From Paraburkholderia azotifigens (lineage in GTDB: Bacteria > Pseudomonadota > Gammaproteobacteria > Burkholderiales > Burkholderiaceae): DNA of 64,000 nucleotides. The stretch spans positions 3,038,001-3,102,000 of the forward strand of contig NZ_VOQS01000003.1 of assembly GCF_007995085.1 (NCBI RefSeq). Direction: 5' to 3'. Both the position numbers and the translations under genes were made by a program. Of this stretch, positions 2,498 to 27,458 are shown one piece after another. Numbering within the stretch: position 1 is the stretch's first letter; each line of letters opens with the position of its first letter. The notes under the pieces were generated by a model. The model worked only from the letters and a program-made list of their open reading frames with translations. It had not been told where the DNA came from and did no database searches.

Positions 2498-3628
2498 TCA
2501 AAACGTATGCCGGATCCCGACGATCGCCCCGACTTGTCCAACACCCGCCGCAGGTGTGGTACCGCCGCCACCCGCGCTCACCGAATACCTGGCATGCGCG
2601 CTGTTCCACAAATACGCGACGTTGCCATACACGGCCGTTTGCTTCGACAGGAAGTACGTGGCGCGCATGCTGGCCATCGTCGCGCGCGCGTCCTGCTGCT
2701 GGACGATCACGCGATACGCTTCACCATCGATGGCAAACACGGGTGTCACATAATACTGCGCGCCCAGATAGAACAGATTGGAGCGCACGTCGCCGCCCCG
2801 TCCGTTCGATTCCACGCGACGCCCGACCCATCCGCCGCCGATCTTCACACCCGCAACGTTCACATAGCCGTTCGCCTGTAGACGCGCATCCTTGTCGCCC
2901 GCGCCGGTCACTGGAAACGGCGCGACGCCATCGAAGAAGTTCGCCGCCGCGTTGGTGCCGCCGCGCTGCTCATCGTAGGCCGTCGCCACGCCGAAATAAG
3001 TGCCGTCGTATTTGAGCATCGCACTCCATTCGCGGCATTGATTCACGTCGCCCGGCACCTGCCCGGCGCACGTCCCCTGCCCCGGCGAATTGCCCGTGCC
3101 CGTGCTGTCGCGTCCGAACGACCACGTTGCGCCGACCGTGAATCCATAGAATTTGCCTTTGTAGGCGACCGTATTGTCGCTTCTCGCGTTTGGCAAGAAC
3201 GCGTCCAGTGCACCGATACCGTAGATGTCGGGCCCGAGAATATCGGCATCCGACAGCGCCCAATACGACATCGTGTATTGGCGGCCGAACGTCAGCGCGC
3301 CCCACGGCCCTTCCAGTCCGACGAGCGCCTGCCGCCCGAACAGCCGTCCCCCTTGCCCCGAGTCGCCGCCTTTGAGATTGAACCCGCTTTCGAGGATGAA
3401 TACGGCCTTGAGTCCGCCGCCCAGGTCTTCAGCGCCGCGCATTCCCCAGCGCGAGGGCAGTTCGCCTGTGATGCCGGGCATCCGGATTACGTGATCGCCC
3501 GCAGCGTTTGCGTGGGAAACATACTCGATGCCCGTGTCCAGCACGCCATAGAGCGTGACGCTGCTTTGCGCAAATGCCGTCGTGCTGAACAGCCCTGCCG
3601 CCAGCGCTGCAAACCTGCTGTATTTCAT
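2498..3628 (-). CDS. Gram-negative general porin, OmpC-like
   Basis: A 376-residue outer-membrane trimeric porin of the Burkholderia/Neisseria type, allowing passive entry of small hydrophilic solutes. A signal peptide is clear (residues 1-20, ending TTAFA before QSS), followed by the family-typical first strand SVTLYGVLDTGIEY. The middle holds the constriction-loop region (NARSDNTVAYKGKFYGFTVG). The protein ends VGIRHTF, with the terminal phenylalanine needed for outer-membrane assembly. The start is supported by AAGGAG seven bases upstream. Length fits the family (about 350-400). It may supply entry for substrates of the catabolic operons that follow, but porins are too unspecific to prove that. 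Confidence 0.92.
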   Translation of the reverse strand: MKYSRFAALAAGLFSTTAFAQSSVTLYGVLDTGIEYVSHANAAGDHVIRMPGITGELPSRWGMRGAEDLGGGLKAVFILESGFNLKGGDSGQGGRLFGRQALVGLEGPWGALTFGRQYTMSYWALSDADILGPDIYGIGALDAFLPNARSDNTVAYKGKFYGFTVGATWSFGRDSTGTGNSPGQGTCAGQVPGDVNQCREWSAMLKYDGTYFGVATAYDEQRGGTNAAANFFDGVAPFPVTGAGDKDARLQANGYVNVAGVKIGGGWVGRRVESNGRGGDVRSNLFYLGAQYYVTPVFAIDGEAYRVIVQQQDARATMASMRATYFLSKQTAVYGNVAYLWNSAHARYSVSAGGGGTTPAAGVGQVGAIVGIRHTF

Positions 3629-3954: not shown

Positions 3955-4563
3955 TCAAAGCCAACGTCTTACGCGCGAGCAATATTCGGCATAACGCTGC
4001 GGGTGCAAGCTGAACATGTGCTCTTCTTCGAATCGGACCTGAACCTGTACGAGCAACTCCGACATCACCCATATGACAAGCACCGGCCACGTGCCCAGCA
4101 CGAGCAACTGACCGAATATCGTCACCCGGATGCCAAGATAGATCGGGTTGCGCGACAACGCGAACGGACCCTTCGTGATCAATTCGGTAGCCGTGCGGCT
4201 GTCGACGCCCATTCGCCATGCGCTACCCATCGCGGCCTGCGAGCACACGACCCATATCAACGCGATTGTCATGCAAGCCGCGCCGATCCATCGAACCCAT
4301 TCGCCATCGAAGATGCTCAGAACGGTTTGTCCTCGCTGGCCCGTGAGGCCGTAAAACGCGAGCAATACTCCATCGACAACGGGCAGCCACACGTAAAAGC
4401 ATCGCGCGACGAAATCGCGTGCCGACTCACCACGTGAAAACGACACGGCGTCATGCCGGTTCGTGCGCGCAATCACTATGCGGCCAAACACGGCCGTTGC
4501 GCCGAACACGCCCGCATGAACGAGAGGAAGAAATCGCCAGAAGCTGGAATCGCCGAAGTGCAT
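3955..4563 (-). CDS. Isoprenylcysteine carboxyl-methyltransferase-like membrane protein
   Basis: A 202-residue integral membrane protein of the ICMT/PEMT-like methyltransferase family, which binds S-adenosylmethionine with the conserved C-terminal part. Seen here are several N-terminal membrane segments and then the signature region: GPFALSRNPIYLGIRV (RNPIYLG is the family hallmark) and FEEEHMFSLHPQRYAEYCSRVRRW, the EE-H-Y-Y-V-RRW pattern that closes these enzymes. Bacterial members have mostly unknown substrates, since bacteria lack prenylated proteins; lipids or small isoprenoids are possible. Start at 4563 is the first ATG in frame; a GTG at 4608 would add 15 residues. No partner gene is adjacent. 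Confidence 0.75.
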   Translation of the reverse strand: MHFGDSSFWRFLPLVHAGVFGATAVFGRIVIARTNRHDAVSFSRGESARDFVARCFYVWLPVVDGVLLAFYGLTGQRGQTVLSIFDGEWVRWIGAACMTIALIWVVCSQAAMGSAWRMGVDSRTATELITKGPFALSRNPIYLGIRVTIFGQLLVLGTWPVLVIWVMSELLVQVQVRFEEEHMFSLHPQRYAEYCSRVRRWL

Positions 4564-4825
4564 AGCTTTATCGAACCGCGTGATCTTTTGTGGTGCGCAT
4601 GTTCTCACATCACGCTGCCATCAGCCCGAACGCCATTTCACGCGCTCGTCTCGCGGCGTTCAAGGTGCACGATCGCAATATGCACGACGTGCAGCAGGGT
4701 GTTGCAGGAGTTTCGCTTCCTGGGATGATGCTGCTATGGCATCTTGAGATCGCCATGAAGCACATCGCAACGCGTGCACGACGCAAGGACGGTGTGCCGG
4801 GCCATCACATCAAGGAGAAAGCGAA

Positions 4826-5377
4826 ATGTCCGAAGCCCCTGCATCGAGCACAAAAGATCAGCTTGTCGCGCGCTGCCTGCCCTTCCTCGAAGAAGTGAAA
4901 GACATGACGACGGGCACCAACGTCGAGCAATGGCTGAATACGAAATACGGCGTCGATAGCGAACTGTACAAGGATCTTGCGCGCCTCATTACGCTCGGCG
5001 TCGAAGAAGGCTGGGCCGCCGATGTCGAAATCGCCGGACGGAAGTATCGTCGCGCAAGACTCGTCGAACCCGCCGCAGAGACGTTCTATTTCAGCATCAC
5101 CGCCGTGTTGATCGACAGTACGGGCAACACGCAGGGCAACCCGGAAGATGCGTTTCGCGGCGACTACCACTCGCACCCTTATGGCGAGTTCAACATGGTC
5201 GTTCCGCTCAACGCAGGCGCGGCGCTCGCAGGACCGAACGGATGGTGCCATGGCGGCTGGACGGCGCCCGCACCGGGCAGCCATCACTTCCCGGAAGCCA
5301 AAGGCGGTGCCGTGATCGCATTGTTCTTCCTGCCTTCGGGACGTATTGCATACGACGTCAAGCCGCCCGTTCAATGA
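4826..5377 (+). CDS. DUF4863 family protein, PnbB-like
   Basis: A 183-residue soluble protein of the DUF4863 family. To my knowledge the family includes p-hydroxylaminobenzoate lyase (PnbB), which converts 4-hydroxylaminobenzoate to protocatechuate and ammonia in 4-nitrobenzoate degradation. The second half has a cupin-like metal-site pattern: GDYHSHPYGEFNMVVPL (two His and a Glu), then WCHGGWTAPAPGSHHFPEA. A strong ribosome-binding site (AAGGAG about nine bases before ATG) fixes the start. It stands alone but faces an aromatic-acid transporter, and a nitroreductase lies 9 kb away, which fits a role in nitro- or aminoaromatic metabolism. The family call is good; the exact reaction is inferred. 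Confidence 0.75.
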   Translation: MSEAPASSTKDQLVARCLPFLEEVKDMTTGTNVEQWLNTKYGVDSELYKDLARLITLGVEEGWAADVEIAGRKYRRARLVEPAAETFYFSITAVLIDSTGNTQGNPEDAFRGDYHSHPYGEFNMVVPLNAGAALAGPNGWCHGGWTAPAPGSHHFPEAKGGAVIALFFLPSGRIAYDVKPPVQ

Positions 5378-5446: not shown

Positions 5447-6808
5447 TCAATGCGCGAGCGATTCGCCATCCGCCACATCCGCTGCCGTTTCCGTCGAACC
5501 CGTCGCCTGTTTGATCAGCAGCGCCACGCACGACACTGCACCCGCTATCGCAACGACCGTGAAAATGCCGGGCAAACCGACCTGCTGCCGCGACAACTCC
5601 GCGACCAGAAACGAGCCCGCGATGCCGCCGAACCGACCCACGCCCAGCATCCATGCAACGCCCGTTCCGCGTCCCGCCGTTGGATAGAACGCGGCCGCCA
5701 GCGCAGGCATCGATGCCTGCGCGGTATTCACCAGCACGCCGGCGATAAATACCGCGCACATCAGCAGGCCGATATTGCCCATTGCCTGACCGATCGCATA
5801 CACGGCGACGGCACCGAACGCATACGCGGCGGCCACCACGCGATTGGGATTGAAGCGGTCCATCAACAAGCCGCACAAGACCGTCCCCGCGCCGCCGAGC
5901 GGAAACAGTGCGGCGACGAGTGCGGCACGTTGCGGCGTGAGTCCGGCATCCTTGAGCAACACGGGCATCCAGTTGACGAGTCCATAGAAGATGACGAGGC
6001 CCATGAAGTAGCACACCCACAGCATCACGGAACCCAGAATGAACGGACGCGACAACACGATGCGAAGGCCGCCCTCGCCCGTCGCATGCTTCACGCTTTC
6101 CTGCATGACGAATGCGTGCGCAAAACGCGCGTCCGGACTGATGCGCATGAGTACCTTGCGGATCTTCCCGGCCGGCTTCCCTTTCGCCACCATGTAACGG
6201 ATCGACTCGGGCAAGCGGAACACGAGCACGACGGCGAGCAGCAACGGCACCGCGCCGCCGAGCAGCAGCACACTGCGCCAGCCGAAATGCGGAATCATCC
6301 ACGCGGCGAGAAATCCGCCGAACGCGGCGCCCAGCGGAAAGCCGCAGAACATCAGATTTACGATCGTCGCGCGCCGGCCGTCTGGACTGAATTCGCTCAT
6401 GAGCGTAACGGCATTCGGCATCGCAGCGCCGAGCCCGACGCCCGTCACGAAGCGCAGCGCGGTCAGTTCGCCCAGATCCCGTGCGAAAGCGGAAGCGAAA
6501 CAGGACGCGCCGAACAACATTACCGACAAGGTCAGTACGACGCGCCGCCCGCATCGGTCGGACAGCGGGCCCGACAGCAATGCGCCGCATGCGAGCCCGA
6601 ACAGTGCAGCGCTCAGCACGGGCGCGAGCGCCGCCTTGCCGATATTCCACTCCGACAGCAGCGAAGGTGCGATGAAGCCGATCGCAGCCGTATCGAAGCC
6701 ATCCATCAGCACGATCACGAAGCACATCGCAAATACGAGCCATTGAAAGCGGGAAAAACGGTGCTCGTTGATGAGCGTCTGTACATCGACAGTCCTTGTC
6801 TCTTCCAT
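5447..6808 (-). CDS. MFS transporter, aromatic acid:H+ symporter (AAHS) family
   Basis: A 453-residue twelve-helix permease of the AAHS group (PcaK/BenK relatives), which import aromatic acids with protons. The diagnostic DGFDTAAIGFIAPSL lies in the first membrane helix; its Asp is needed for transport in PcaK. The loop 2-3 signature is GPLSDRCGRRVV and a matching loop follows helix 8 (LMDRFNPNRVV). The long hydrophilic middle loop around KPAGKIRKVLMRI is typical. The start at 6808 is preceded by GAGGATGCA, a good ribosome-binding site. It lies 288 bases after the LysR gene on the same strand, so it probably has its own promoter. Its substrate is probably the acid handled by the neighbouring oxygenase cluster or DUF4863 enzyme. 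Confidence 0.88.
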   Translation of the reverse strand: MEETRTVDVQTLINEHRFSRFQWLVFAMCFVIVLMDGFDTAAIGFIAPSLLSEWNIGKAALAPVLSAALFGLACGALLSGPLSDRCGRRVVLTLSVMLFGASCFASAFARDLGELTALRFVTGVGLGAAMPNAVTLMSEFSPDGRRATIVNLMFCGFPLGAAFGGFLAAWMIPHFGWRSVLLLGGAVPLLLAVVLVFRLPESIRYMVAKGKPAGKIRKVLMRISPDARFAHAFVMQESVKHATGEGGLRIVLSRPFILGSVMLWVCYFMGLVIFYGLVNWMPVLLKDAGLTPQRAALVAALFPLGGAGTVLCGLLMDRFNPNRVVAAAYAFGAVAVYAIGQAMGNIGLLMCAVFIAGVLVNTAQASMPALAAAFYPTAGRGTGVAWMLGVGRFGGIAGSFLVAELSRQQVGLPGIFTVVAIAGAVSCVALLIKQATGSTETAADVADGESLAH

Positions 6809-7096: not shown

Positions 7097-8071
7097 TCAG
7101 CCGCTTCGAACCTGGCGCGCGACATCGGCAAGCTGATGCCGCAGCCATTGCAATGCGGGGTCGGCGTCATTGCGTTCGTGCCATACGGCACGCACGGCGA
7201 CGTTAGGCGATTCATAAGGCGTCGGGCACATTTTCAGTTCGCCGTAGCGCTCCAGTTCGCGTCCAAGCGACGACGGCACGAGCGCCAGCATGTCGCTATG
7301 GCGAAGCAGCGCCGGAATCGCGAGCGAATGCGCGACGGACATGCGCATGCGCGGCATCTCGGCGGCCTGCGCAAACGCGCGGTTGAGCGCGTCGCGATTG
7401 AACATCTCCGATTGCCGCGCGAGTCCCCGTTCGACGATAAAGCCGCTCACCGCGCCCTCCTCCTCGCCGCCCTGCGAGATCGCGATGAGCGGATGCGCGA
7501 GCAGGTCGTCGCGCGTGATCGGCCGGCCGGCGATGGGGTGATCGCGATGAAGCAGCACGACGTCCGTCTGTTCCCAGAGCTTCGTCGAACGGAAACGCGC
7601 CGGCACGTCCGCGAAAATGCCGATTGCCATATCGATCCGGCCGACGTCGATCTGGCCTGCGAGATCGAGGCGCGTCGAAGGCCGCACGACCAGGTCGACG
7701 AGCGGCGCCTCGGCGTGCAGCCGTTGACTGAGGCGCCCCAGCACGAGCGACGTAATGTAATCGTTCGCGGCGACCACGAACTTGCGTTGCGCGACGCGCG
7801 GATCGAACGCATCGACACCGAGCGCGGCCCGGATCTGCTGAAGCGCGCCGCGTACCTGCGCCGCCATGCCGAGTGCACGCACGGTCGGCTCCATGCCTCT
7901 GCCCGTGCGCACGAACAGGTCGTCGCCGAGCACCTCTCGCATCCGCGCGAGCGCGTGACTGATCGCGGACTGGCTCAGATGCAGGCGCTTGCCCGCGAGC
8001 GCGAGATTGCGGTCTTCGAAAATCGCGTCGAACACCCGCAACAGGTTCAGGTCAATACGGTCTGCTGACAT
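7097..8071 (-). CDS. LysR-family transcriptional regulator
   Basis: A 324-residue regulator. The N-terminal winged helix-turn-helix is clear (DLNLLRVFDAIFEDRNLALA to SQSAISHALARMREVLGDDLF, residues about 6-60), followed by the two-lobed inducer-binding domain. The start follows the upstream hydrolase stop by four bases, so this gene looks like the last member of the oxygenase operon rather than a divergently oriented regulator, which is unusual for LysR proteins. Upstream GAAAGG serves as the ribosome-binding site. In this position it is co-transcribed with the genes it may control. It probably senses a pathway intermediate; which one cannot be read from the sequence. Confidence 0.88.
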   Translation of the reverse strand: MSADRIDLNLLRVFDAIFEDRNLALAGKRLHLSQSAISHALARMREVLGDDLFVRTGRGMEPTVRALGMAAQVRGALQQIRAALGVDAFDPRVAQRKFVVAANDYITSLVLGRLSQRLHAEAPLVDLVVRPSTRLDLAGQIDVGRIDMAIGIFADVPARFRSTKLWEQTDVVLLHRDHPIAGRPITRDDLLAHPLIAISQGGEEEGAVSGFIVERGLARQSEMFNRDALNRAFAQAAEMPRMRMSVAHSLAIPALLRHSDMLALVPSSLGRELERYGELKMCPTPYESPNVAVRAVWHERNDADPALQWLRHQLADVARQVRSG

Positions 8072-8075
8072 GGTT

Positions 8076-8864
8076 CTACGCCTTTCGATGAGCGGCTGTC
8101 CGTTGTGTTGCATGACGATAGCGGCGGCAACTTGCGCCGAATGCTTCGAAAAGGGCACGCGACAGCGCATCGTCTTCGAGCATCGCTTCGGGATGCCACT
8201 GCACGCCGAGCGCGAACGCGTGTTCGCCGACCCGAAACGCTTCGACCAGACCATCGGGCGCGCGTGCTTCCACCACGAGCCGCGGCGCGAGTGCCGCCGC
8301 GCCCTGACGATGCAGCGAATTCACGCGCACGTGTGGCGCGTGCGCGAGCGTCGACAGGATGCCAGCAGGCGCGATTTCGACTTCGTGGCGGTACCGATAG
8401 CGCGTGGGCAGATCGTCCGAGAGGTCTTCGAGATGATCGACAGAATGTCCGCTCGCATGAATATCCGTGTGCAGCGTGCCGCCGAAAGCGACATTCATTT
8501 CCTGAAAGCCGCGGCAGATCGCGAGCATCGGCATGCCGCGCGCGGCGGCGCCTTGCATCAGCGTCAGCGCGACGTGATCGCGATCGGGATCGACATGCAT
8601 GTCGTCCGCCGCGTGGCCGCCATACCGGTGGGCTTCCACATTGGATGCGCCGCCTGGAAACAGCAGGCCGCTTACGGCATCGAGATAGCCGTCGAACGCG
8701 TCGATGTCGCGCGTCGCGGGAATCAGCACGGGGTTCACGTTTGCGCCCGACATCAACGCGCGGACATAGCTGTGCTTCGCGCTGTGCAGATCGTGTTCGC
8801 CAACGAAGAAGCGGTCGCACACCACGCCGACGAGAGGACGCCCGTGACTTGCCTCGATCGTCAT
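8076..8864 (-). CDS. Gamma-glutamyl hydrolase, peptidase C26 (PuuD-like)
   Basis: A 262-residue class-I glutamine-amidotransferase-fold hydrolase related to PuuD, which cleaves gamma-glutamyl-gamma-aminobutyrate. The catalytic triad is present: Cys117 in MLAICRGFQEMNVAFGG, and His224 and Glu226 in LGVQWHPE. Other family marks are PLVGVVCDR near the start and GLLFPGG. Its start overlaps the reductase stop by four bases (ATGA), showing translational coupling. With a glutamine-synthetase-like ligase in the same operon, it most likely removes the glutamyl group that the ligase puts on an amine, or hydrolyses the oxidised glutamylated product. The substrate is unknown. Confidence 0.88.
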   Translation of the reverse strand: MTIEASHGRPLVGVVCDRFFVGEHDLHSAKHSYVRALMSGANVNPVLIPATRDIDAFDGYLDAVSGLLFPGGASNVEAHRYGGHAADDMHVDPDRDHVALTLMQGAAARGMPMLAICRGFQEMNVAFGGTLHTDIHASGHSVDHLEDLSDDLPTRYRYRHEVEIAPAGILSTLAHAPHVRVNSLHRQGAAALAPRLVVEARAPDGLVEAFRVGEHAFALGVQWHPEAMLEDDALSRALFEAFGASCRRYRHATQRTAAHRKA

Positions 8865-10117
8865 ACGGCGCCTCGCGCAGCGTGCATGTCGCCGCTCGCG
8901 AGCGACTTCAGATCGAAGGCGGGATCGCGCACTTCGTCGGCCAAGACGTGCGCGCCGCTCGCGAGCAGCTTGCGCGCAAGCATGTGATCTTGCGGGCGGT
9001 TGATACTGTCGACGGCGATCAGCGTCTTGCCGCGAAAATAGAACAGCGAACACTTTCTCTCTTCGACAGAGCCGCGCACCGCATAGTCGTTGAAACCCGT
9101 ATTCACGCCCGCCATTTGCAGCTTGAGGTCGTACTGATCGGACCAGAACCACGGCACCGCGCGATACGGCTCGGATCGCCCGAGAATCGAGGCCGCTGCC
9201 GTCTTCGCCATATCGTTGGCGTTCTGCACGGATTCGATGCGGCAAGCGCGCGCGTCCGGCAGCGCCCAGTGAGGAACGAACGACGCGCAATCGCCCGCCG
9301 CAACGATCCGCGGATCGCTGGTGCGCGCGCAGGCATCGACGGTAATGCCGCCTTGCACGTGCAGTCCGCAGTCCGCGGCCAGTTCGGTGTTCGGAATCAC
9401 GCCGATACCGACCACGACCAGATCGCACAGCAGACGCGTGCCGTTGTCCAGTTCGACGGAGACGATGCCGTACGCGTCGTGCAGCGCCACCACCTTGCGT
9501 CCGCATTCGAACGCAACGCCGCGCTCGACGTGAGCACGCAGCATGAAGTCCGATATCCATGGCGACGCGACGCGCGCAAGCAGTCGCGGCTCGGTCTCTA
9601 CGACGGTCACGTCGACCCCTTGCTGGCGCAGCGAGGCGGCCGCCTCGAGGCCGATATAGCCGCCGCCGATCACGACAGCCCGCCTTGCCGTGCACGCCGT
9701 CTGCGCGAGCCGCCTCGCATCGCGCAGATCGCGAAGATAGTGAACGGCATCGAGCGCCGCGCCCGGGCAATCGAGCTTGCGCACGCGCGCGCCCGTTGTC
9801 AGCGCGACATGGTCGTATGCGATCCGCGAACCGTCGTGCAGCCCGATTTCGCGCCGCTCGCGGTCGATGCGGATGGCGCGCGTCGACGGCATCCACTCGA
9901 TCTTTTCTTCGTCGAAGAACACCTGTGAGCGAAGCGGCAAACGCGCTTCGGCGACACTGCCTGTCAGAAAGCCCTTCGACAGCGGCGGCCGTTGATAGGG
10001 CGCATCGGGTTCGTCGCCGAGCAGCACGATACGGCCGTCGAAGCCCAGTTCGCGCGCCGACGCGGCAAGCTGAACGCCCGCATACGACGCGCCGACAATC
10101 ACCAGCGTGCGTTTCAT
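8861..10117 (-). CDS. FAD-dependent ferredoxin reductase
   Basis: A 418-residue pyridine-nucleotide:ferredoxin oxidoreductase of the putidaredoxin/rubredoxin-reductase type. It passes electrons from NAD(P)H through FAD to a [2Fe-2S] ferredoxin. The FAD-binding motif is at the N-terminus (VIVGASYAGVQLA), a second Rossmann motif for NAD(P)H is in the middle (VVIGGGYIGLEAAASL), and the FAD-closing motif is IVAAGDCASF. The gene starts 13 bases after the ferredoxin stop and overlaps the next gene by four bases. It should be the first electron carrier for the Rieske oxygenase of the operon. Length is normal for the family. Confidence 0.93.
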   Translation of the reverse strand: MKRTLVIVGASYAGVQLAASARELGFDGRIVLLGDEPDAPYQRPPLSKGFLTGSVAEARLPLRSQVFFDEEKIEWMPSTRAIRIDRERREIGLHDGSRIAYDHVALTTGARVRKLDCPGAALDAVHYLRDLRDARRLAQTACTARRAVVIGGGYIGLEAAASLRQQGVDVTVVETEPRLLARVASPWISDFMLRAHVERGVAFECGRKVVALHDAYGIVSVELDNGTRLLCDLVVVGIGVIPNTELAADCGLHVQGGITVDACARTSDPRIVAAGDCASFVPHWALPDARACRIESVQNANDMAKTAAASILGRSEPYRAVPWFWSDQYDLKLQMAGVNTGFNDYAVRGSVEERKCSLFYFRGKTLIAVDSINRPQDHMLARKLLASGAHVLADEVRDPAFDLKSLASGDMHAARGAV

Positions 10118-10130
10118 GATGTCACCCTTA

Positions 10131-10454
10131 TCACGCCTGTTTCGGTGGAATCTGCACGACGAGTCCGTGCATCGCGGGCATCACGACGAGCTGACAACTG
10201 AGCCGGCTTTCGGGACGGCGCCCGGCGGCCACGCCCTCGAGCAGTTCGAGTTCGGACTCGTCGGGCAGCGGCAAATCCGCCGTCGACGACGCGTCGACAT
10301 AAACATGGCAGGTCGCACACGACAGACAGCCGCCGCATTCCGCGTCGATGCCGCGCACGTTGTGATGGATCGCGGCCTCCATCACGCTGGTGCCGGCGGC
10401 CACGTCGATGGCGCGGCGCTCGCCGTCGCGCAGGATGTAGGTGACGATAGGCAT
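10131..10454 (-). CDS. [2Fe-2S] ferredoxin, adrenodoxin/putidaredoxin type
   Basis: A 107-residue ferredoxin. Cluster ligands fit C-x5-C-x2-C-x37-C (Cys40, Cys46, Cys49, Cys87). An additional Cys43 sits inside the first loop (ECGGCLSCATCHVYVDA). The acidic region DESELELLEG resembles the partner-binding helix of putidaredoxin-type proteins. The ATG at 10454 has AAGGAGAG upstream and is preferred over an in-frame start 20 codons earlier. It lies 26 bases after the ligase stop, in the middle of the operon, and should shuttle electrons from the reductase to the Rieske oxygenase. Confidence 0.93.
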   Translation of the reverse strand: MPIVTYILRDGERRAIDVAAGTSVMEAAIHHNVRGIDAECGGCLSCATCHVYVDASSTADLPLPDESELELLEGVAAGRRPESRLSCQLVVMPAMHGLVVQIPPKQA

Positions 10455-10480
10455 GACTTCTCTCCTTGATGGGAACACCA

Positions 10481-11917
10481 TCAGAACGTTTCGAAATACT
10501 CCCGGTGTTCCCACTCGGTGACTTCCAGATTGAAACGGTCGATCTCCGCTTCCTTCAGCTTGCAGAAGTAATCGACGAATGCGCTGCCGAAGCCTTCGCG
10601 CAGACAGTCGTCGGCACGCAGCGCGGCGATGGCGTCGCTCAACGTGCGCGGCAGCGCATCGGCCTGCGTTTCGTAGGGCGTATCCGCCGACGGCGGCAGT
10701 TCGAGCTTGCGCCGCAGTCCGTCGAGCCCCGACAGCACCTGCGAGCCGAAATACAGATACGGATTCGCTGTCGGTTCGCCGACGCGGTTTTCGACGCGCG
10801 TCGCCGGATCGTTCGCTCCGCCCAGCACGCGCAGCATCACGCCGCGGTTGTCGCAGCCCCAGATCGCGCGATCGGGCGCATTCGAATACGGCCGGTAGCG
10901 GCGGTAGCCGTTGATGGTCGGCGTCGACAAGGCGGTCGCGCCCTGCGCATGTGCAAGCAGTCCCGCGAGATAGCGCTGGCCCGTGACGGAAAGCGGCGCG
11001 CCCGGATCCGTCGGCATGAATGCGTTAGTGCCGCCCGCGACATGCACGAGCGACTGATGCAGATGCCATCCGCTCGATACGACATTCGGAATGCGCGGAC
11101 GGCACATGAAGGTCGCGTGATAGCCGTTGCGCTGGCAGATCTGCTTCACCGCGCTGCGGAACAGGATCATGTCGTCGGCGCTTTGGATGCCCGTGGTCGG
11201 CGCGAACGTGAACTCGAACTGGCTAGGGCCGTATTCGACTTCGAGCGAGCGCACGGGCAACGCGAGTCCGTCGATGCCGCGCCGGAGCATCTCCATCACG
11301 CCGTCGACGGCGTCGTAGCGCAGTTCCGTCAGATATTGGTAACCATGCGACAGCAGTTCGACATCGGGCGGAATGCCCGGCTGCCCCGAATGCTCGGGCT
11401 TCATGTTCGGATTGGTGACCTTGAAGACATGAAATTCCACTTCGAGGCCGGACATGAATTCATAGCCGTGATTGCCGAGCTGTTCCAGCGCGCGCCGGAA
11501 CAGATGACGCGTCGCGAACGGCACGGGCCTGCCGTTCGCGAAGTACACGTCGCACAGCACCCAGCCCGTGTGCGGCGCCCACGGCAACACGCGGAAGGTT
11601 TCGGGATCGGCGACCATCAGCGTGTCGCAGGCGCCCTGCATTTCAGGCATATCGAAGCCGCCGCCCGCCGTGAACACGGGGAACACCGTGCGGTGCGACG
11701 TATCTTTGGCGAGCAGCGTGCTCGTCAGCGTGACGCCGTTCCTGAACGCGCGGATCGCTTCGTCGACGACGAGCGTCTTGCCGCGCAGCAGTCCGTGCTG
11801 ATCCGGGAACGAAAAACGCACCACCTGCACGTCGCTTTCTTTCAGCCGTTCGAGCAGCGCGGCATGAGCCGTGTGCTGGTCGTCCGTCCACAAGCCGTGA
11901 GTTTCGACAAATGACAT
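10481..11917 (-). CDS. Glutamine-synthetase-like gamma-glutamyl-amine ligase
   Basis: A 478-residue member of the glutamine synthetase superfamily, most like the PuuA/AtdA1/IpuC group that uses ATP to join glutamate to an organic amine. Visible signature elements: the metal-site segment GLEVEFHVFK, GPSQFEFTFAP, the nucleotide/metal segment SSGWHLHQSL, the glutamate-binding segment TINGYRRYRPYSNAPDRAIW and the closing RVENRVGEPTANPYLY. The adenylylation loop of true GlnA is not evident. ATG 11917 is used; a GTG four codons upstream is possible and neither has a strong ribosome-binding site. Its context with a gamma-glutamyl hydrolase and an oxygenase argues against ammonia assimilation and for activation or detoxification of an amine substrate. 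Confidence 0.85.
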   Translation of the reverse strand: MSFVETHGLWTDDQHTAHAALLERLKESDVQVVRFSFPDQHGLLRGKTLVVDEAIRAFRNGVTLTSTLLAKDTSHRTVFPVFTAGGGFDMPEMQGACDTLMVADPETFRVLPWAPHTGWVLCDVYFANGRPVPFATRHLFRRALEQLGNHGYEFMSGLEVEFHVFKVTNPNMKPEHSGQPGIPPDVELLSHGYQYLTELRYDAVDGVMEMLRRGIDGLALPVRSLEVEYGPSQFEFTFAPTTGIQSADDMILFRSAVKQICQRNGYHATFMCRPRIPNVVSSGWHLHQSLVHVAGGTNAFMPTDPGAPLSVTGQRYLAGLLAHAQGATALSTPTINGYRRYRPYSNAPDRAIWGCDNRGVMLRVLGGANDPATRVENRVGEPTANPYLYFGSQVLSGLDGLRRKLELPPSADTPYETQADALPRTLSDAIAALRADDCLREGFGSAFVDYFCKLKEAEIDRFNLEVTEWEHREYFETF

Positions 11918-11975
11918 GTTGCTTCGCACGGCCGCTCGACGGCCGCGCGCTCCATTGTGGTTGCGGGGTTCGTCG

Positions 11976-13292
11976 TCAGGCTTTCGGCGCGGGCCACGGC
12001 GCGGCGTCGCGGCGCTTCACGTCGGAGGCCTTCCAGTAGTCGTCCCAGCCGTCGGCGGGGCCGATGCCGTCGATCGACGCCGGTCCCGTCAGATGCGCTG
12101 CCTGCTGTGTGTCGATCATCATCAGCGTCTTCTCGCCCGCCTGCGTCTTCTCGATCGCATCGACGAGCAGACGGCGATACGCGATGATGCCCTTGTCGGT
12201 CGTGCCCAGATGCTCGCGCGTGCGGTCCTGGATCGCGCCCTGCGATTCGACGGCCCACTGGTCATGCACGTTGATGTCGAAGCCCATCCCCGTGTAGGTC
12301 TGGGTCTGTTGCTCGTCGGCATCGAAGCCGTAGTGATTGCGCCGGTTCTTGCGCGACGTGTAATCCGGCAGCTCGTACAGTTCGAGCCGCTGCGCGCGCA
12401 TCTGCGCCTTGTCGGTGGGCGCGCCGAAGCTCGTGAAGATCGCGTACCAGTAGCAGTTCTCGTCGTCGACGGGCACGTGCCATTGCGTGATCGTCATCTC
12501 CGCGCTCATCGGAATCACGAAGGCCTGCGGGAACACGACATTGGTCACGCGCACGTGAGTCTGTGCTTCGTTCAGCGGGCGCTTCGCGATCAGGCGAAGT
12601 CCATAGTCGGCCGGGCTGACGAGAATCTCCGGCGATTCGAATTCGCGCAGCACCTGCGTGATCGGCATGTCCGAATCCGCCGATGCGCCGCGAAACTGCT
12701 TGCCGTAGCTCTCGCTCACATCTTCGTCTTCGAAGAAGCGGTGCAGAAACGACGCGTGCGCGGGATCGATGCCGACTTCGAGCGCCTGCAGCCAGTTGCA
12801 TTCGAACAGGCCTTTGAACGCGAACGTGTATTCGCCCGGCGCGGCGAAGCAGTCGAAGTTCGGGAATGCGGGCGGCTCGCCGCCGCCGATGTACGCGAAC
12901 AGAATGCCGCTGCGCTCGACCACGGGATACGCGCTCTGCCGCACCTTCCTGCAAAGCGTGCTGCCGACGGGTTCGCCCGGCGTCGACAGGCACTGGCCGT
13001 CGACATCGAACAGCCAGCCATGGAACGCGCAGCGCAGGCCGCCCGCTTCGAGACGGCCCGCCGCGAGATCCGCGCCACGGTGCGGGCAATCGCGATCCAG
13101 CATGCCGTAGCGGCCCTGCTCGTCCTTGAACACGACGAAATCCTGACCCATCAGCCGTACTGCGCGAACGGGACGCTGTGCGGGCAACTCCTCGACCAGC
13201 GCGACGGGCTGCCAGTAATTGCGCAGTAACTGCCCGGCGGGCGTGCCCTTGCCTACGCGCGTGATCGTGTCGTTTTGCTGCGAACTCATCAT
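11976..13292 (-). CDS. Rieske non-heme iron oxygenase, alpha subunit
   Basis: A 438-residue oxygenase of the single-subunit (phthalate dioxygenase/demethylase-like) Rieske class. It uses electrons from the ferredoxin to hydroxylate or dealkylate its substrate. The Rieske centre is Cys69-x-His71 and Cys88-x2-His91. The mononuclear-iron motif is D176-P-A-H179-ASFL-H184, where Asp176 bridges subunits and the two His bind iron. No small beta-subunit gene is present, which fits an alpha-only oligomer. GGAG precedes the paired ATG codons (13292/13289). It is the first gene of a six-gene operon, 58 bases before the ligase. The substrate could be a gamma-glutamylated arylamine, but an O- or N-demethylase role is also possible. 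Confidence 0.9.
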   Translation of the reverse strand: MMSSQQNDTITRVGKGTPAGQLLRNYWQPVALVEELPAQRPVRAVRLMGQDFVVFKDEQGRYGMLDRDCPHRGADLAAGRLEAGGLRCAFHGWLFDVDGQCLSTPGEPVGSTLCRKVRQSAYPVVERSGILFAYIGGGEPPAFPNFDCFAAPGEYTFAFKGLFECNWLQALEVGIDPAHASFLHRFFEDEDVSESYGKQFRGASADSDMPITQVLREFESPEILVSPADYGLRLIAKRPLNEAQTHVRVTNVVFPQAFVIPMSAEMTITQWHVPVDDENCYWYAIFTSFGAPTDKAQMRAQRLELYELPDYTSRKNRRNHYGFDADEQQTQTYTGMGFDINVHDQWAVESQGAIQDRTREHLGTTDKGIIAYRRLLVDAIEKTQAGEKTLMMIDTQQAAHLTGPASIDGIGPADGWDDYWKASDVKRRDAAPWPAPKA

Positions 13293-13678
13293 GGCCTGTC
13301 TCCAGTTGCGGTGAATGCACGGGATCGATTGCTGTATGCAAAACGACCCCCAATGAGCACGAAGAATAGAGCCAAGAATTCAAATGTTCAATCACTGCAT
13401 ACAGCCGTTCGCGGTAATCGCGTTCAACAACTGTGTTCCCGCCTGCATCTAACAGACTTTATTCGTTGATTTATATACATTTTTTACAGATAACCAGGAA
13501 TTTCCCCAGGACGATTCATCAGATCATAAAAACTCCGAATTCAACCGTCATTGTATGCAACAAAGAACAACAATGATAAAAGTTGCAGGCGCCGAAACCC
13601 TATCCAGCCGCTCATGCTCTACAATCGGGCGAACCAGCAACGCAGGCATCGCGCCCGCCAGGGTCACCGGAGAAGGAA
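13293..13678. promoter_or_regulatory. Divergent promoter region with three GntR-like operator candidates
   Basis: The 386-base region between the Rieske oxygenase and the GntR gene is more A/T-rich than its flanks and must hold both promoters. Three copies of one 10-bp motif, (C/T)TGTATGCA(A/G), are present: CTGTATGCAA at 13332-13341, the reverse-strand copy CTGCATACAG at 13395-13404, and TTGTATGCAA at 13551-13560. The form TTGTATNCAA is typical of FCD-subfamily GntR operators, so these are the likely binding sites of the adjacent regulator, flanking both start regions. Confidence 0.6.
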
Positions 13679-14410
13679 ATGGAATCCCAGCAAGAACGTG
13701 TGTTGGTGTATCTGCGCGACCTGATCCTCAAGGGCGAATTCGCGCCTGGAGAACGCCTCGGCGAAGTCGCGCTCGCGGAGCGGCTGCAGGCGTCGCGCAC
13801 CCCGGTCCGGCTGGCGCTCACGACACTCGAACAGGAAGGTCTCGTCGAGCCGTCTCCCGCAGGCGGTTATGTGATGCGCCGTATCACGGCGGCCGAAATC
13901 GCCGATGCCATTGCCGTGCGCGGACACCTCGAAGGCATGGCCGCGCGCCTCGTCGCCGAACACGGCGTGCCGCGCCAGTTGTCGAACGGGCTGAACGAAT
14001 GTCTGCGTGCGGGCGACCGGCTGCTGGCGAAGGCCGAACTCGATCTCGACGATTACGCCGCCTACACGGACATGAATAACCGCTTCCACAAGCTGATCGT
14101 CGAGGGCTCGGGCAATGCGGCGCTGATCCGTGCGATCGACATGAACAACCGCCTGCCGTTCGCCGCAGCCAGCGCGATGCTGCCGATGCAATCCGCCATC
14201 GAGGAGGGACGTCAATGGCTTTTCATGGCGCATCAGCAACATCACAGCCTCGTGCAGTCGATGGAACGCGGCGAAGGCACGCGAGCGCAATCGCTCGCCA
14301 CGGAGCACGTGCAGATCGCGCAACGCAATCTGACCTACGCGCTCGAGCGGCCAGAGGTGTATCTCAAACTCGCGCCAGCGTTGCAACTCGTCGCCGAAGC
14401 GGTTTTATAG
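13679..14410 (+). CDS. GntR-family regulator, FadR/FCD type
   Basis: A 243-residue regulator. The N-terminal winged helix is clear (ERVLVYLRDLILKGEFAPGERL then ALAERLQASRTPVRLALTTL, residues 5-60), and the all-helical FCD ligand domain follows (RGHLEGMAARLVAEHG, NNRFHKLIVEGSGNAALIRAI, HQQHHSLVQSMERGEG). The His/Asp positions that bind a metal and acid ligand in FCD proteins appear to be present. ATG 13679 has GGAGAAGGAA directly upstream; reading further 5' adds a proline-rich leader without support. It is transcribed away from the Rieske operon across a shared promoter region with three operator-like motifs, so it very probably represses that operon and itself until an acidic inducer binds. 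Confidence 0.9.
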   Translation: MESQQERVLVYLRDLILKGEFAPGERLGEVALAERLQASRTPVRLALTTLEQEGLVEPSPAGGYVMRRITAAEIADAIAVRGHLEGMAARLVAEHGVPRQLSNGLNECLRAGDRLLAKAELDLDDYAAYTDMNNRFHKLIVEGSGNAALIRAIDMNNRLPFAAASAMLPMQSAIEEGRQWLFMAHQQHHSLVQSMERGEGTRAQSLATEHVQIAQRNLTYALERPEVYLKLAPALQLVAEAVL

Positions 14411-14561: not shown

Positions 14562-15245
14562 ATGAATTCGGATACCTATCTTGTCGATTCCGTGATCCGC
14601 TCACGAAAAGCCGTTCGGGTCTTTCGTCCGGATGCTGTTTCGAAGCAGGACGTGATCGACATTCTCGATGTCGCGCGGACCGCGCCCAGCAATTCGAACA
14701 CGCAGCCGTGGCGTGTCCATGTGCTGGCGGGCGGCGCCAGACAGCAACTGAGCGATGCGCTGGCGCGTGCTCACACAGACGGAGCGCATCCGCAACTGCA
14801 GCACATGCCGGATCCTTTGCCCGATTCGTATCGGCTGAGACAGGAAGACTTCGGCGCGCGATATTACGGCGCACTGGGCATCGACAAAGCGGACGTCGAT
14901 GCACGCTCGCAGGCAACGGGCAGGAACTTCGAGTTTTTCGGCGCTCCGCTCGGCATGATCTTCACCATCGATGCCCAACTGAAGAAATACAGCTGGCTCG
15001 ACTATGGGCTGTTCATTCAGAACATCATGATCGCGGCGCGTTCGCGTGGTCTGGATACGTGCCCACAGGTGTCATTCGCGCGCTATCAGGAAGTCATCGC
15101 AAAGCATCTCGACATCGAAGCGGGCCACGAGGTCGTCTGCGGGATGTCGCTCGGCTATGCGGATGAAGATTCCGTCGTGAACCGGCTCGAACTTCCGCGT
15201 GAGCCGGTCGTCCGGTTCGCACGTTTTGCCGGCCTCGACGCGTAG
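14562..15245 (+). CDS. Nitroreductase-family FMN oxidoreductase
   Basis: A 227-residue NfsB/NfnB-fold flavoprotein. The FMN-binding start is clear (VIRSRKAVRVFRPDAVS, then ARTAPSNSNTQPWRVHVL), and the second flavin segment is FGAPLGMIFTID and YGLFIQNIMIAARSRGL. Such enzymes reduce nitroaromatics to hydroxylamines with NAD(P)H, although many members act on quinones or enones. The ATG at 14562 is preferred (GGAG 14 bases upstream); an ATG at 14535 would add nine residues. It lies 150 bases after the GntR gene on the same strand. The PnbB-like protein at 4826 makes a PnbA-type 4-nitrobenzoate reductase role possible, but the two genes are not in one operon. Confidence 0.82.
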   Translation: MNSDTYLVDSVIRSRKAVRVFRPDAVSKQDVIDILDVARTAPSNSNTQPWRVHVLAGGARQQLSDALARAHTDGAHPQLQHMPDPLPDSYRLRQEDFGARYYGALGIDKADVDARSQATGRNFEFFGAPLGMIFTIDAQLKKYSWLDYGLFIQNIMIAARSRGLDTCPQVSFARYQEVIAKHLDIEAGHEVVCGMSLGYADEDSVVNRLELPREPVVRFARFAGLDA

Positions 15246-18656: not shown

Positions 18657-21600
18657 TCAAATGTTCCTGATGATACCCGGCGTCAGATGCACTTTCTCTG
18701 ACGGCGGAATGAAATACTGCAGCCCGCCGCCCGGATAGACGTGATCGTCCTTGACGCCGTCGAACGTGGGATTGGCCAGCGCGCGTCCCTTCGCCACGCA
18801 GATATCCTTCGTCACGAAGTACGCGCGAACCTGCGTGCGTCGCGCACGCGGATTGCCGTCGCCGTCGACACCCGGCGTGACCTGAACGAGGTCGTGGAAT
18901 TTCTCCGAGCTGCTCGCCGCCTGACGCAGCGATCCGATCGTCACCGCATAGCCCGGCGCACCGCCCGGATGTAGTGAATACAGCACGGTGCCGCGCTTGA
19001 GCACCGTGTTCTGATACGAGTCCACGCCCTTGTACGGCGCCGTGCCCTGCCAGCCGCGCGCTTCCTTCGCGGGATCTTTTCCTTCGCACGGGTTCGGACT
19101 GCAGCAGGCTTGCCCCGATGCCTGCGCCTTCTTGCCCTTGAGTCCGCGCGGATCGATCCAGTCGGTCGGATTCGGCGCGTACTGATACGGATTGGTGTTG
19201 CCGAGCAGGCCGATCGGCTCCTGTGAAATGTACCGGCCCGTGCGCGGATCGTAATAGCGATAGCGGTTGTAGGCGAGACCCGTTTCGTCGTCGAACTGCT
19301 GCCCCTGGAAGCGGATCGGATTGTGTACGGGCACGTGCGTGATATGCGACGCGCGTGCATCGACGGCGATCGTCTCGCCCCACGCCTTGTAGCGCGCTTC
19401 CCAGACGATGTCGCCTAGCTCGTCCGTCATCATCAACGGCGTGCCGATCTGATCGCAGTGGTAGAACAGCGCGCTGGCGGGCGCGCTTGCCGCAGGCGGT
19501 TGCATCAGCGGATCGTCTTCGGGTGCGTAGCGATCCGTTGCGTTCCATTGCGGCGTGTCGATGCCTTCGACGGCGGCGCCCGCATACTGCGCGAGCGGCG
19601 TGAACGAACCCGCTTCGTAGACGAAGTGAATGCTGTGCGCGCCGCTGCTCTCGAAGGCGAGCGTGTCGCCGTCCCAGCCGAAAATCGTCTGCACGCGATC
19701 GACCTGCCTCGCGATGCGCCGGCCGAACGGATCGTAGAAATAGCGTGCCTCGCGCGAACCGGCCGGCTCGTCGACACGCGCACCGACCAGCCGGTTGAAA
19801 GCATCCCACTGATAATGCTGCGCGCTGCCGGGTGAACGCCGGCCGGTCAGATTGCCGCGCGCATCGTAGTCGAAATGCGTGCCCGCATAGTCCCGCAGCA
19901 GATTGCCGAGCGTCTTCGGGATCTGCGTGGGCAGCGTGTTCGACGTGCTTGCGCCCGCAGACGGATAGCCGATGTTGTTGGCGGGATCGAAGGCGAACTG
20001 TTCTTTCGCCATCGGACTCAGCGCTTCGAGCAGCCTGCCGACGGGATCGTAGCGATACGTCGTCGGCCCATGACGGCTGTCGTCGATGTGCGTCAGTTGT
20101 CCCGCCGGATCGTAACCATAACGGCGCTCGGCGACATGGCCCGGTGCGTTCTCGCGCGCGAGCCGCTGTTCGGCCACGCGCCCGGCGGGATCGTATTTCG
20201 TGCGCTGCTCGAGCCGGCTCGAGAAATTGCGCTGAATCTCGCGATGCAGATCGTCGCGTTCGAACTGCACCAGTTCGCGGCCATCGAGCATCATGCCGTG
20301 CACGTGGCCCGCGCCGTACGTCAGCCAGTCGACCGTGTGGCCGTCGGGCCGCTGCGTGCGGATGCGCGTGCCGATCTCGTCGTACTCGTGACGCCACACA
20401 TAGCTGCGTTTTTCGCCGAACAGCTCGTACGCGTGATGCTCGCGAATCAGGTTGCCGACGGCATCGTAGAAGTGCTGCACGCGACAGTGCGCGTTGCGCG
20501 CTTCCGCGAGGCGGCCGCCTGCATCGTATGCAAACGACTCTTCGTCGCCGCCCGCCACGCGCCGCGCGAGACGTCCCGCGCGATCGTATTCGAGGTGCGT
20601 CAGCTGACCCGCCTCGTCGATCGCGATCAGCTTGCTGCTCGCCGCGTCGTATTCGTAGCGCGTTTGCTTGCCGTCGAAACCAATCTCGGCCGTGAGCCGG
20701 CTCACGGGATCGTAGAACAGCCGGTACGTCGCGTGATTTGCGTCTTCGAGCGCGCTCAGGCGGCCGAGGCGATCGTAGCGATATGCGAGCGTCTGGCCCA
20801 GCGCATCGGTGCGATACGCGATGCGCCCTGCCGCGTCGTATCCGTAGCGCGTACTCGCTCTGGACGGATCGGCGTGCTCCGTCAAACGGCCTTCGGCATC
20901 GTGCTCCATGATCTCGATGCCGGACGGCTTGACCACCGCGCTCAGCTGGCCGTTGGCGCCATAGCGGTACAGCGTGCTTTGCCCGGCGGCGTCCGTCGCT
21001 TCGAGAAGACGGCCGTGTCCGTCGTACGTCCATTGCGTGGTCTTGCCCGAGCAATCGGTGTAGCTCGTCAGCTGCCCATATGCGTTGTAGGCCAGCGCCT
21101 TGGCGCCGCCTTTCGCGTCGGTGATCTGCGTCGGCAGGCCTTCGCCGTTGTACGTGTACTTCGTCTCGCGTCCGAGCGGATCGGTCTGCGTGACGACGTT
21201 GCCCTTGTCGTCGTATTCGCGCTCCCAGCGAAAGCCTTGCGGATCGACGATTGCCGTCATCTGATCCTGCGTGTCGTACTCCATGCGCACGACGCTGCCG
21301 TCCGGCCGGATCTGTTCGACGAGATTGCCGCGCGCGTCGTAGGCGAAGCGCGCGACCGTGCCATCGGGATAGATGCGTTGCGTCACATGGTGATTCGCAT
21401 CGCGATAGAACCACTCCTCGCGCGCGTCGGGATGAACGATCCGATACGTGTAGCCATCAATGTCGTAATAGTGGCGCGTCATGCTGCCCAGACCGTCCGT
21501 CACGTAGACGAGGCGAATCTCGGGATGCCACGCGAGGCGCGTTTCGTTCGAACCGTCGTCGGCATATTCCCGCACGCAACGCGCCTTCGGACCTGTGCCG

Positions 21601-23375: not shown

Positions 23376-23391
23376 ACGAATTCAGTCCGGT

Positions 23392-23946
23392 TCAGAAATT
23401 ATCGAAAGAAGCCTGGTCGTACCTGCAGCCGAGCAGAATCCAGCCGGGCGTCTCCTTCTGATCGACGAGCAGCCGGATTTCCCGGCCGCCGCCCGCCTTG
23501 CGATAGTCGGCGCCGCGCCAGTTCATGTGCTCGCGCATCGACACCGCGCCTGCGTCTTCGCGCATTCCGCCGATACGCTCGGCCCATTGCTTTCCGACGT
23601 CGACCTCGCCGCCCTTCGGAGCAGCAATCGCCATCAGCATTTCGCGCGGCGACACCAGCGTGACGACCCTGGACTGCACGCCCCACGCTTCGACGGGTTT
23701 CCGTGTTTGCCAGCCGAGAGCAATCGCATCGGGCTTTCCGGACTGGTTCGTCAGGCCGGGCACCGCATTTGCGTCGACGCGCGCGATGAAGCGCTCGATC
23801 TGTTTGGGGCTGAGCTTGCATTCGATGAAATCGGCCATCGTGCGCAGGTCGGCAGCCGATTGCGCGTGTGCGGGCATCGACAACGCGATGGCCGTGATGG
23901 CGCCGAGCACGGCGGCGCCACGCATGGCGCGTCGGATACAGGTCAT
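23392..23946 (-). CDS. Secreted protein of unknown function in the vgrG-rhs operon
   Basis: A 184-residue protein with a signal peptide (about residues 1-29, ending MPAHAQ). The mature part has two cysteines (FIECKL and LLGCRYDQ) that could form a disulfide. No catalytic motif or named domain is recognised. It begins four bases after the OB-fold gene and ends 16 bases before rhs, so it is translated with them. Its periplasmic destination makes it a possible protective or maturation factor for the secreted toxin, or a second effector; neither is shown by sequence. Confidence 0.7.
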   Translation of the reverse strand: MTCIRRAMRGAAVLGAITAIALSMPAHAQSAADLRTMADFIECKLSPKQIERFIARVDANAVPGLTNQSGKPDAIALGWQTRKPVEAWGVQSRVVTLVSPREMLMAIAAPKGGEVDVGKQWAERIGGMREDAGAVSMREHMNWRGADYRKAGGGREIRLLVDQKETPGWILLGCRYDQASFDNF

Positions 23947-23950
23947 GGCG

Positions 23951-24325
23951 TCAGTCGGGTTGGCAGGCGGTGGCGGTCGCGAAGCCGGTAGAAAACTGGC
24001 CGACGCAATGCAGGGTCACTGTCTGCCCGACGCGTTTGCGTATCTTCGCGACAGCAGCCTGATTGGCGAACGCGACGCGCACGGCCTGGTCGGGATCGTC
24101 GCCGAGCTTGCCGACGACATCGCCCGTCAAGCCCTCGTCGAGCGAGAGCAGCGTGCCCGTCAGCGCGACGCGCCTGTCCGCGTAATTCGATGCGATGTCC
24201 GAGGTCGACACCGCGCCACTGCCGAACTTTTCGGCCAGTTGCGCAGCGTTGATCCTGAGTTCGTTCGCGGCGTGGACGTCGAGCGCGACGACGGCCGTCA
24301 TGAGTAGTGCAGCAGCGGTTTTCAT
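23951..24325 (-). CDS. Exported OB-fold (tRNA_anti-like) protein
   Basis: A 124-residue exported protein with a signal peptide (MKTAAALLMTAVVALDVHA) followed by a pattern typical of the tRNA_anti-like OB-fold family: AAQLAEKF, then SNYADRRVALTGTLLSL, VRVAFANQAAVAKIRKRVGQ and a final Cys. The fold binds oligosaccharides or nucleic acids elsewhere, but this periplasmic subgroup has no assigned ligand. ATG 24325 is chosen because it starts the signal peptide. It lies 43 bases after vgrG and four bases before the next gene, so it belongs to the toxin operon. Confidence 0.7.
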   Translation of the reverse strand: MKTAAALLMTAVVALDVHAANELRINAAQLAEKFGSGAVSTSDIASNYADRRVALTGTLLSLDEGLTGDVVGKLGDDPDQAVRVAFANQAAVAKIRKRVGQTVTLHCVGQFSTGFATATACQPD

Positions 24326-24368
24326 GGTTCTTGCCGGCGGTGCGCCGGATGGAAATAGCGATGCAGCA

Positions 24369-27300: not shown

Positions 27301-27458
27301 GCAATCAGCGATTTGAGTTCGATGCCGTCGTTAATAGAAACGACATCGACGGTAAATGCGAAATCGCGCCCGAGACGGCTATGCCCGATAAGCCTTTGCG
27401 GCACGAGTACGTCGGCGCCGAGCGGCGTATCCAGTTTCAGCAGCCGATTATCCTGCAC
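24369..27458 (-). CDS. vgrG: T6SS spike protein VgrG with C-terminal extension
   Basis: A 1029-residue VgrG, the trimeric tip of the T6SS tube. The N-terminal two-thirds hold the gp27-like base and gp5-type OB fold ([35 protein letters not shown] is the hallmark region), then a DUF2345 beta-helix (about 640-810). Unlike the second VgrG in this window it goes on with a transthyretin-like domain ([20 protein letters not shown] then [20 protein letters not shown]) and a tail of about 140 residues rich in Ala, Ser and Gln, probably a cargo dock. The open frame can only start at GTG 27458, yet a good ribosome-binding site and the homologous ATG lie at 27499 in another frame, one G short (see findings). 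It is the first gene of the rhs operon. Confidence 0.92.
   Translation of the reverse strand: [1029 protein letters not shown]

Follow-up and report, generated by a model that had tools for sequence, protein, structure and literature searches.

A probable Sad-like gamma-glutamylation and Rieske deamination operon of Paraburkholderia azotifigens, with 4-aminobenzoate as its most likely substrate and a pnb-type module joined to it

The operon and the closest described systems

The sad operon of Hydrogenophaga intermedia PBC is described as encoding a 4-aminobenzenesulfonate 3,4-dioxygenase, with a Rieske-type gene (sadA), a glutamine synthetase (GS)-like gene (sadB) and a ferredoxin gene (Gan et al., 2017, PMC5632844). 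The authors argued that in nature this dioxygenase must act on a compound similar to 4-aminobenzenesulfonate, and the accessions that they print for SadA and SadB are WP_009515254.1 and WP_009515256.1. Here we report on a minus-strand operon in a 64,000-nucleotide stretch of the 9.7-Mb genome of Paraburkholderia azotifigens (contig NZ_VOQS01000003.1, positions 3,038,001 to 3,102,000; this whole stretch is called the window). As in sad, a Rieske oxygenase gene adjoins a GS-like ligase gene and is accompanied by a ferredoxin gene, but the window operon adds genes for a reductase, a C26 gamma-glutamyl hydrolase, a LysR regulator and a PcaK-like transporter. The nearest named relatives of the genome place it in Burkholderia sensu lato. 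The gene set probably tags an acidic aromatic amine with glutamate and then oxidizes it as a nutrient. Judging from sequence comparisons, we consider it probable, with room for doubt, that this is a Sad-like operon for gamma-glutamylation and Rieske deamination, that 4-aminobenzoate is the most likely substrate, and that the operon has been joined to a pnb-type module.

The original prediction, which had the sequence alone to go by, took this combination of genes to be an unfamiliar one, a claim that the Rieske dioxygenase, GS-like gene and ferredoxin of sad largely refute (PMC5632844). The refutation that the original prediction had set itself, characterized homologous clusters of known substrate, thus largely applies, and what sets the window apart is the presence of the reductase and C26 genes in the operon. 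The system is known in kind, following the logic of Sad and Atd. What is new is that a C26 hydrolase probably stands in the role of AtdA2, that the operon is linked to a pnb-like module, and that 4-aminobenzoate is specifically predicted as the likely natural substrate.

Further systems invite comparison. Like the window, the AtdA and NpaA systems for aniline and 1-naphthylamine combine a Rieske oxygenase with a GS-like ligase and with a hydrolase from the superfamily of class-I amidotransferases; they differ in that their oxygenase has two subunits and belongs to another branch, and in that their hydrolase is of the AtdA2 type instead of C26. The published role of AtdA2 is hydrolysis of surplus conjugate, and the glutamylation chemistry of NpaA1 and AtdA1 is in print for other arylamines. 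The records for plasmid pTB30 and the SRS16 plasmid give gene families only, in an AtdA-like order; their genes presumably serve aniline and chloroaniline. The Puu route combines a ligase and a C26 gamma-glutamyl hydrolase in a similar logic, but it uses an oxidase/dehydrogenase where the window has a Rieske enzyme, and both the ligase and the hydrolase of the window score under the Puu cut-offs. Auxin degradation, where iad also involves a Rieske enzyme, was considered and set aside: in the available part of PMC12633357, the oxygenase is said to have two subunits and a reductase, and neither glutamine synthetase nor glutamyl compounds are mentioned.

Gene positions and Pfam matches confirm the five minus-strand genes that had been claimed, including the four bases (8861-8864) shared by the reductase and C26 genes. 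The operon is longer than claimed, since the LysR gene follows C26 after a gap of 4 bases and the PcaK-like gene lies beyond. The oxygenase had been called alpha-only, and in agreement with this no beta subunit match was found among the ten neighbouring proteins scanned.

Ligase, oxygenase and hydrolase among their relatives

The closest match of the ligase in the Protein Data Bank (PDB) is NpaA1 (8wwu, 434 bits; runner-up 177 bits). In a quick maximum-likelihood tree, the window family, the ligase of Novosphingobium resinovorum SA1 and that of a Hydrogenophaga cluster form one group (SH-aLRT 91), with NpaA1 and two AtdA-like plasmid ligases as sister. Four further GS proteins encoded in the genome fall far outside the family, on long branches that the program flagged as unsure. 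The features by which PMC11335346 defines GoaS (glutamyl-organic-amine synthetase) are present: the extra N-terminal loop (15th motif) exists, Glu232 and Glu234 are kept, and the GS flap Glu is lost, its GlnA position being occupied by Asn in the window ligase and by Leu in NpaA1. Asp50 of GlnA proved unusable as a test, as this position is Asp in the window and variable across the family.

According to PMC11335346, the amine tunnel of NpaA1 is lined by the loop V68'-M81' and Phe75'. The residue aligned with Phe75 is Lys in all 115 distinct family members, the window included, whereas it is Phe in all three reference enzymes. In the window ligase, this Lys has number 70 if the 477-residue reference is followed and 71 when counted from the Met at 11917. 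Five positions further on, the family has Arg (67 members), Lys (44), His (3) or Gln (1), and the references have Ser or Ala; by the criterion used, only four alignment columns show such a gain of a basic residue. The replacement of Phe by Lys throughout the family points to an acidic arylamine as substrate, with whose acidic group the tunnel Lys may pair. If 4-aminobenzoate is indeed the substrate, the arylamine glutamyl ligases would include a subfamily specific for acids and recognizable by a single residue.

The closest PDB relatives of the oxygenase are phthalate and isophthalate dioxygenases (PDO and IPDO), whose fold and carboxylate arginine are both present; Arg248 aligns with Arg244, the carboxylate anchor of PDO-KF1. 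A LigX-type O-demethylase, hinted at by PF19301, was rejected because of these nearest structures. In the tree, the oxygenase lies off the two-subunit AtdA3/A4 branch.

Scanning species genomes with the ligase yielded 232 relatives. The loci of the best 80 were analyzed by tblastn, counting matches that covered half of the query or more; several of these loci end at contig ends. An oxygenase was found in 79 loci, a ferredoxin in 63, LIV-type ABC importer genes in 51, a reductase in 43, a PcaK-like transporter in 19, C26 in 18, PnbB in 17 and a nitroreductase in 13. With an oxygenase beside the ligase in 79 of 80 loci, the pairing is not due to chance. Oxygenase and ligase form the core and the remaining genes vary by lineage.

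The C26 protein retains the Cys and His motifs, which we take to be catalytic, when aligned with PuuD (6vtv and 7d4r), and it scores 194 bits against the PuuD equivalog, below the cut-off of 266. Among 144 genomes of the genus, an orthologue (E <= 1e-70) occurs in 15, all of them oxygenase carriers, at 3.1-3.2 kb from the oxygenase. C26 fills the place of the hydrolase in 18 of the 80 loci. In 18 others the place belongs to an AtdA2-like amidotransferase of class I (PF00117; 33% identical to the pTB30 amidotransferase), and the two never occur together. As the two groups are separate lineages, this exclusion amounts to few independent events. C26 probably takes the AtdA2 role, namely hydrolysis of surplus conjugate. 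An amidase, found in 16 of the 80 loci, was set aside as a third hydrolase since its position varies among loci. Downstream of the ligase-oxygenase core, the loci L048, L071, L075 and L077 have genes for an amidase, for one more substrate-binding protein and for an amidotransferase that resembles AtdA2.

Hydrogenophaga carries a related cluster genus-wide: 46 of 60 genomes have an oxygenase match (E <= 1e-100), about 60% identical except for one of 69%, and the ligase, 45-49% identical, lies beside it in the examined cases. In six longer stretches, a ferredoxin match was found in five and a reductase match in none. We infer that this cluster is sad, and oxygenase and ligase of the window fall into one clade with it. 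By identity, the window ligase is about equally far from the presumed SadB and from AtdA-type ligases. Presumably sad also uses a reductase. One metagenome-assembled genome, G001, has both the Hydrogenophaga-type cluster and a closer relative of the window, a hint of two substrates.

Proposed pathway and its rivals

In the proposed pathway, the porin and the PcaK-like symporter would import 4-aminobenzoate, which the GS-like ligase would convert with glutamate and ATP to gamma-glutamyl-4-aminobenzoate. Reductase and ferredoxin would drive the Rieske enzyme, which would dioxygenate ring carbons 3 and 4, and the unstable diol would shed the amide to give protocatechuate and probably glutamine. 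C26 would return surplus conjugate to amine and glutamate. Protocatechuate would then enter the pca pathway encoded elsewhere in the genome, where a PcaH gene was found. In a second arm, nitroreductase and PnbB would convert 4-nitrobenzoate via 4-hydroxylaminobenzoate to protocatechuate, at which both arms would end. Regulation of the two modules would fall to GntR and LysR. The earlier idea that an aryl- or alkylamine is glutamylated and then oxidized is supported in its logic, including the supply of the Rieske enzyme by ferredoxin and reductase; an alkylamine is disfavoured because the ligase groups with arylamine ligases.

What narrows the substrate are genes that the original prediction had overlooked, namely the transporter, the PnbB-family gene, the nitroreductase and the porin. 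Together with LysR, they resemble a pnb module, of which the combination of PF16155 (PnbB) and a nitroreductase is a feature; such modules stand without a ligase or Rieske oxygenase alongside in stretches of Arthrobacter NicSoilB8, Cupriavidus campinensis and genus genome G068. Within the genus, 21 of the 144 genomes carry the oxygenase at E <= 1e-150, and 18 of these have a cluster-type PnbB at most 6.7 kb from it, compared with 16 of 123 non-carriers (Fisher p 5e-11, a value that overstates the case since the genomes are related).

Nine plasmid records have a ligase of at least 60% identity, and six of them hold a cluster-type PnbB of at least 57%. In Paraburkholderia phymatum STM815, a replicon of 1.9 Mb encodes a ligase that is 93.5% identical and a PnbB that is 92% identical. 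Cupriavidus pinatubonensis HN-2 p2 has nitroreductase, oxygenase, ligase, ferredoxin and reductase, with C26, an aromatic-acid symporter, LysR, PnbB and a second nitroreductase up to 12 kb off. C. necator C39 p1 has a different order (LysR, PnbB, nitroreductase, oxygenase, ligase, ferredoxin, reductase, GntR, symporter), and on pMNOD01 of the alphaproteobacterium Methylobacterium nodulans, a distance of 2.7 kb that includes a transposase gene separates nitroreductase and PnbB from the ligase. We read this as two modules, one pnb-like and one of ligase and oxygenase, that were joined repeatedly, because both would act on para-nitrogen benzoates.

Several observations weigh against 4-aminobenzoate. 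All PnbB, PcaK-like and C26 finds come from 22 Burkholderia sensu lato loci, and none from the other 58 of the 80. The C26 orthologue is absent in 6 of the 21 genus carriers, and 3 of the 21 (G082, G111 and G124) lack a cluster-type PnbB; in G124, the oxygenase has diverged (72%) and only the ligase is recognizable beside it in an 18-kb stretch. Three of the nine plasmid records (Polaromonas JS666, with only a 39% relative, Methylobacterium aquaticum and SA1) are likewise without it, and SA1 has its cluster in the window's own clade and yet degrades sulfanilate. No PcaH/PcaG match (E <= 1e-15) was found in the other loci examined, not counting L131 and L132, which are from the window's genome itself, and pca genes near relatives were accordingly dropped as an argument. 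Any acidic arylamine would be compatible with Lys70 and Arg248, which are common to the whole family and so cannot separate substrates within it. Finally, PnbB and PnbA are family names with predicted functions.

A small chance goes to another acidic arylamine, such as 3-aminobenzoate, anthranilate, an aminosalicylate or an aminophenyl-alkanoate, as the tunnel lysine and the carboxylate arginine leave the ring position unfixed. Against it speaks that the common theme of the neighbours is para-nitrogen benzoates. Moreover, the 3-aminobenzoate cluster mab is presented in the available part of PMC9584955 without mention of glutamine or Rieske, and titles cited there indicate that anthranilate has dioxygenases of its own.

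Much the same, slightly lower, standing has a sulfanilate (4-aminobenzenesulfonate) operon like sad, with 4-sulfocatechol as product. The core is the same as in sad, and N. resinovorum SA1 is reported as a sulfanilate degrader (PMC5632844). On its plasmid pSA3, oxygenase (68% identical) and ligase (61%) are nested in the window's family, with ferredoxin, reductase and glutaminase genes near the cluster. It differs from the window in a maleylacetate reductase gene nearby, which suits the sulfanilate alternative, and in that ferredoxin and reductase lie some kb off on the other strand; no PnbB-type gene was found on pSA3. The glutaminase gene (L122, 19204-20115) would fit glutamine release from gamma-glutamyl-arylamide dioxygenation. 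In the window, by contrast, the core is flanked by genes for PnbB, a nitroreductase and a transporter of the aromatic-carboxylate type, and only one of seven genome matches to the protocatechuate dioxygenase beta-subunit model exceeds the cut-off, so that a second copy, of 4-sulfocatechol type, is not evident.

Very improbable, in our estimate, is one linear pathway in which N-oxygenation of gamma-glutamyl-4-aminobenzoate by the Rieske enzyme yields a hydroxamate, C26 frees 4-hydroxylaminobenzoate from this and PnbB rearranges the latter to protocatechuate; glutamylation would then be a handle for arylamine N-oxidation, not for ring dioxygenation. The closeness of PnbB and oxygenase in 18 of the 21 carriers and the position of C26 within the operon agree with it, but each module is also found without the other, the nearest structural relatives of the oxygenase are ring dioxygenases, and carriers without C26 exist. 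It is most unlikely that the ligase merely makes glutamine or serves polyamines (Puu type) and stands beside the oxygenase by chance, since its matches to the models for GlnA (222 bits, cut-off 429) and gamma-glutamylputrescine synthetase (225, cut-off 650) are far below the cut-offs, the oxygenase is its near-constant neighbour and it lies in a clade with arylamine ligases.

For 4-aminobenzoate, genomic context and the tunnel lysine together propose an answer to the question of the natural substrate raised by Gan et al. (2017). If true, this would be an aerobic route for a folate precursor, and sulfanilate degraders may have drawn their enzymes from it. We found no characterized 4-aminobenzoate operon of this kind in the open-licence literature; PMC9584955 mentions in passing that the breakdown of 2- and 4-aminobenzoate has been characterized, so that such genes may already be in print.

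Neighbouring genes

Table 1. Features in and around the operon, with coordinates in the window
Feature	Position	Strand	Pfam match
Rieske oxygenase, alpha subunit only, phthalate/isophthalate-dioxygenase type	11976..13292	-	PF00355 + PF19301 LigXa_C
Predicted gamma-glutamyl-arylamine ligase, GS-like, GoaS type	10481..11917	-	PF00120, 268 bits
[2Fe-2S] ferredoxin, Fer2 type	10131..10454	-	PF00111
FAD ferredoxin--NAD(P)+ reductase	8861..10117	-	PF07992 + PF14759
C26 gamma-glutamyl hydrolase	8076..8864	-	PF07722, 208 bits
LysR regulator	7097..8071	-	PF00126 + PF03466
Aromatic acid:H+ symporter, PcaK-like MFS (AAHS/PcaK-like)	5447..6808	-	PF07690
PnbB-family protein (4-hydroxylaminobenzoate lyase family), cluster subtype	4826..5377	+	PF16155, 195 bits
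Outer-membrane porin, same neighbourhood	2498..3628	-	PF13609
GntR/FCD regulator, divergent from oxygenase	13583..14410	+	PF00392 + PF07729
TGYATRCA palindromes, candidate GntR operators	13333-13340, 13396-13403, 13552-13559		
Nitroreductase, PnbA candidate	14562..15245	+	PF00881

The PcaK-like symporter stays below the cut-offs of both models to which it was compared, clearly for PcaK (NF053517, 482 bits; cut-off 770) and slightly for TIGR00895 (408; cut-off 419). The nitroreductase reaches no NCBIfam equivalog above its cut-off and is 50% identical to the PnbB-paired nitroreductase of Cupriavidus HN-2. PF16155 comprises at least two subtypes: a second copy in the genome (G000:C1:1305728-1306159) is 34% identical to the window PnbB, and 109 of the 144 genus genomes have some PF16155 protein, whereas no more than 34 have the cluster subtype (E <= 1e-50), so that the family name alone overstates function. 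A PF16155 protein has also been placed in box operons (PMC6449761). For these reasons, the name PnbB was rejected as proof of 4-nitrobenzoate conversion.

Relatives of the LysR regulator also adjoin PnbB at places without a nearby oxygenase, and the porin cluster (c10) comes after PnbB or the transporter in most Burkholderia sensu lato loci drawn. The GntR/FCD regulator, whose start is probably the ATG at 13679 as homologues suggest, occurs in 57 of 81 clustered sequences (the 80 loci and the window). The window has just three TGYATRCA palindromes, all of them between the oxygenase gene and the divergent GntR gene and in blocks that are conserved in 16 aligned upstream regions; these may be GntR operators. 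The looser pattern TGYATNCA is not enriched in the window (17 found, 12.4 expected).

Between PnbB and the porin lies a gene for an isoprenylcysteine/phospholipid methyltransferase-like membrane protein (3955-4608, minus strand), which is kept in a few relatives. Further off, a type VI secretion Rhs module occupies 18657-27458 on the minus strand, with an RHS-repeat protein of 1572 aa (18657-23375), a VgrG-type protein (24369-27458; Phage_GPD, T6SS_Vgr, DUF2345) and, between them, two small proteins without a Pfam match. A Ribonuclease-family protein (PF00545) is encoded at 27858-28391 on the plus strand.

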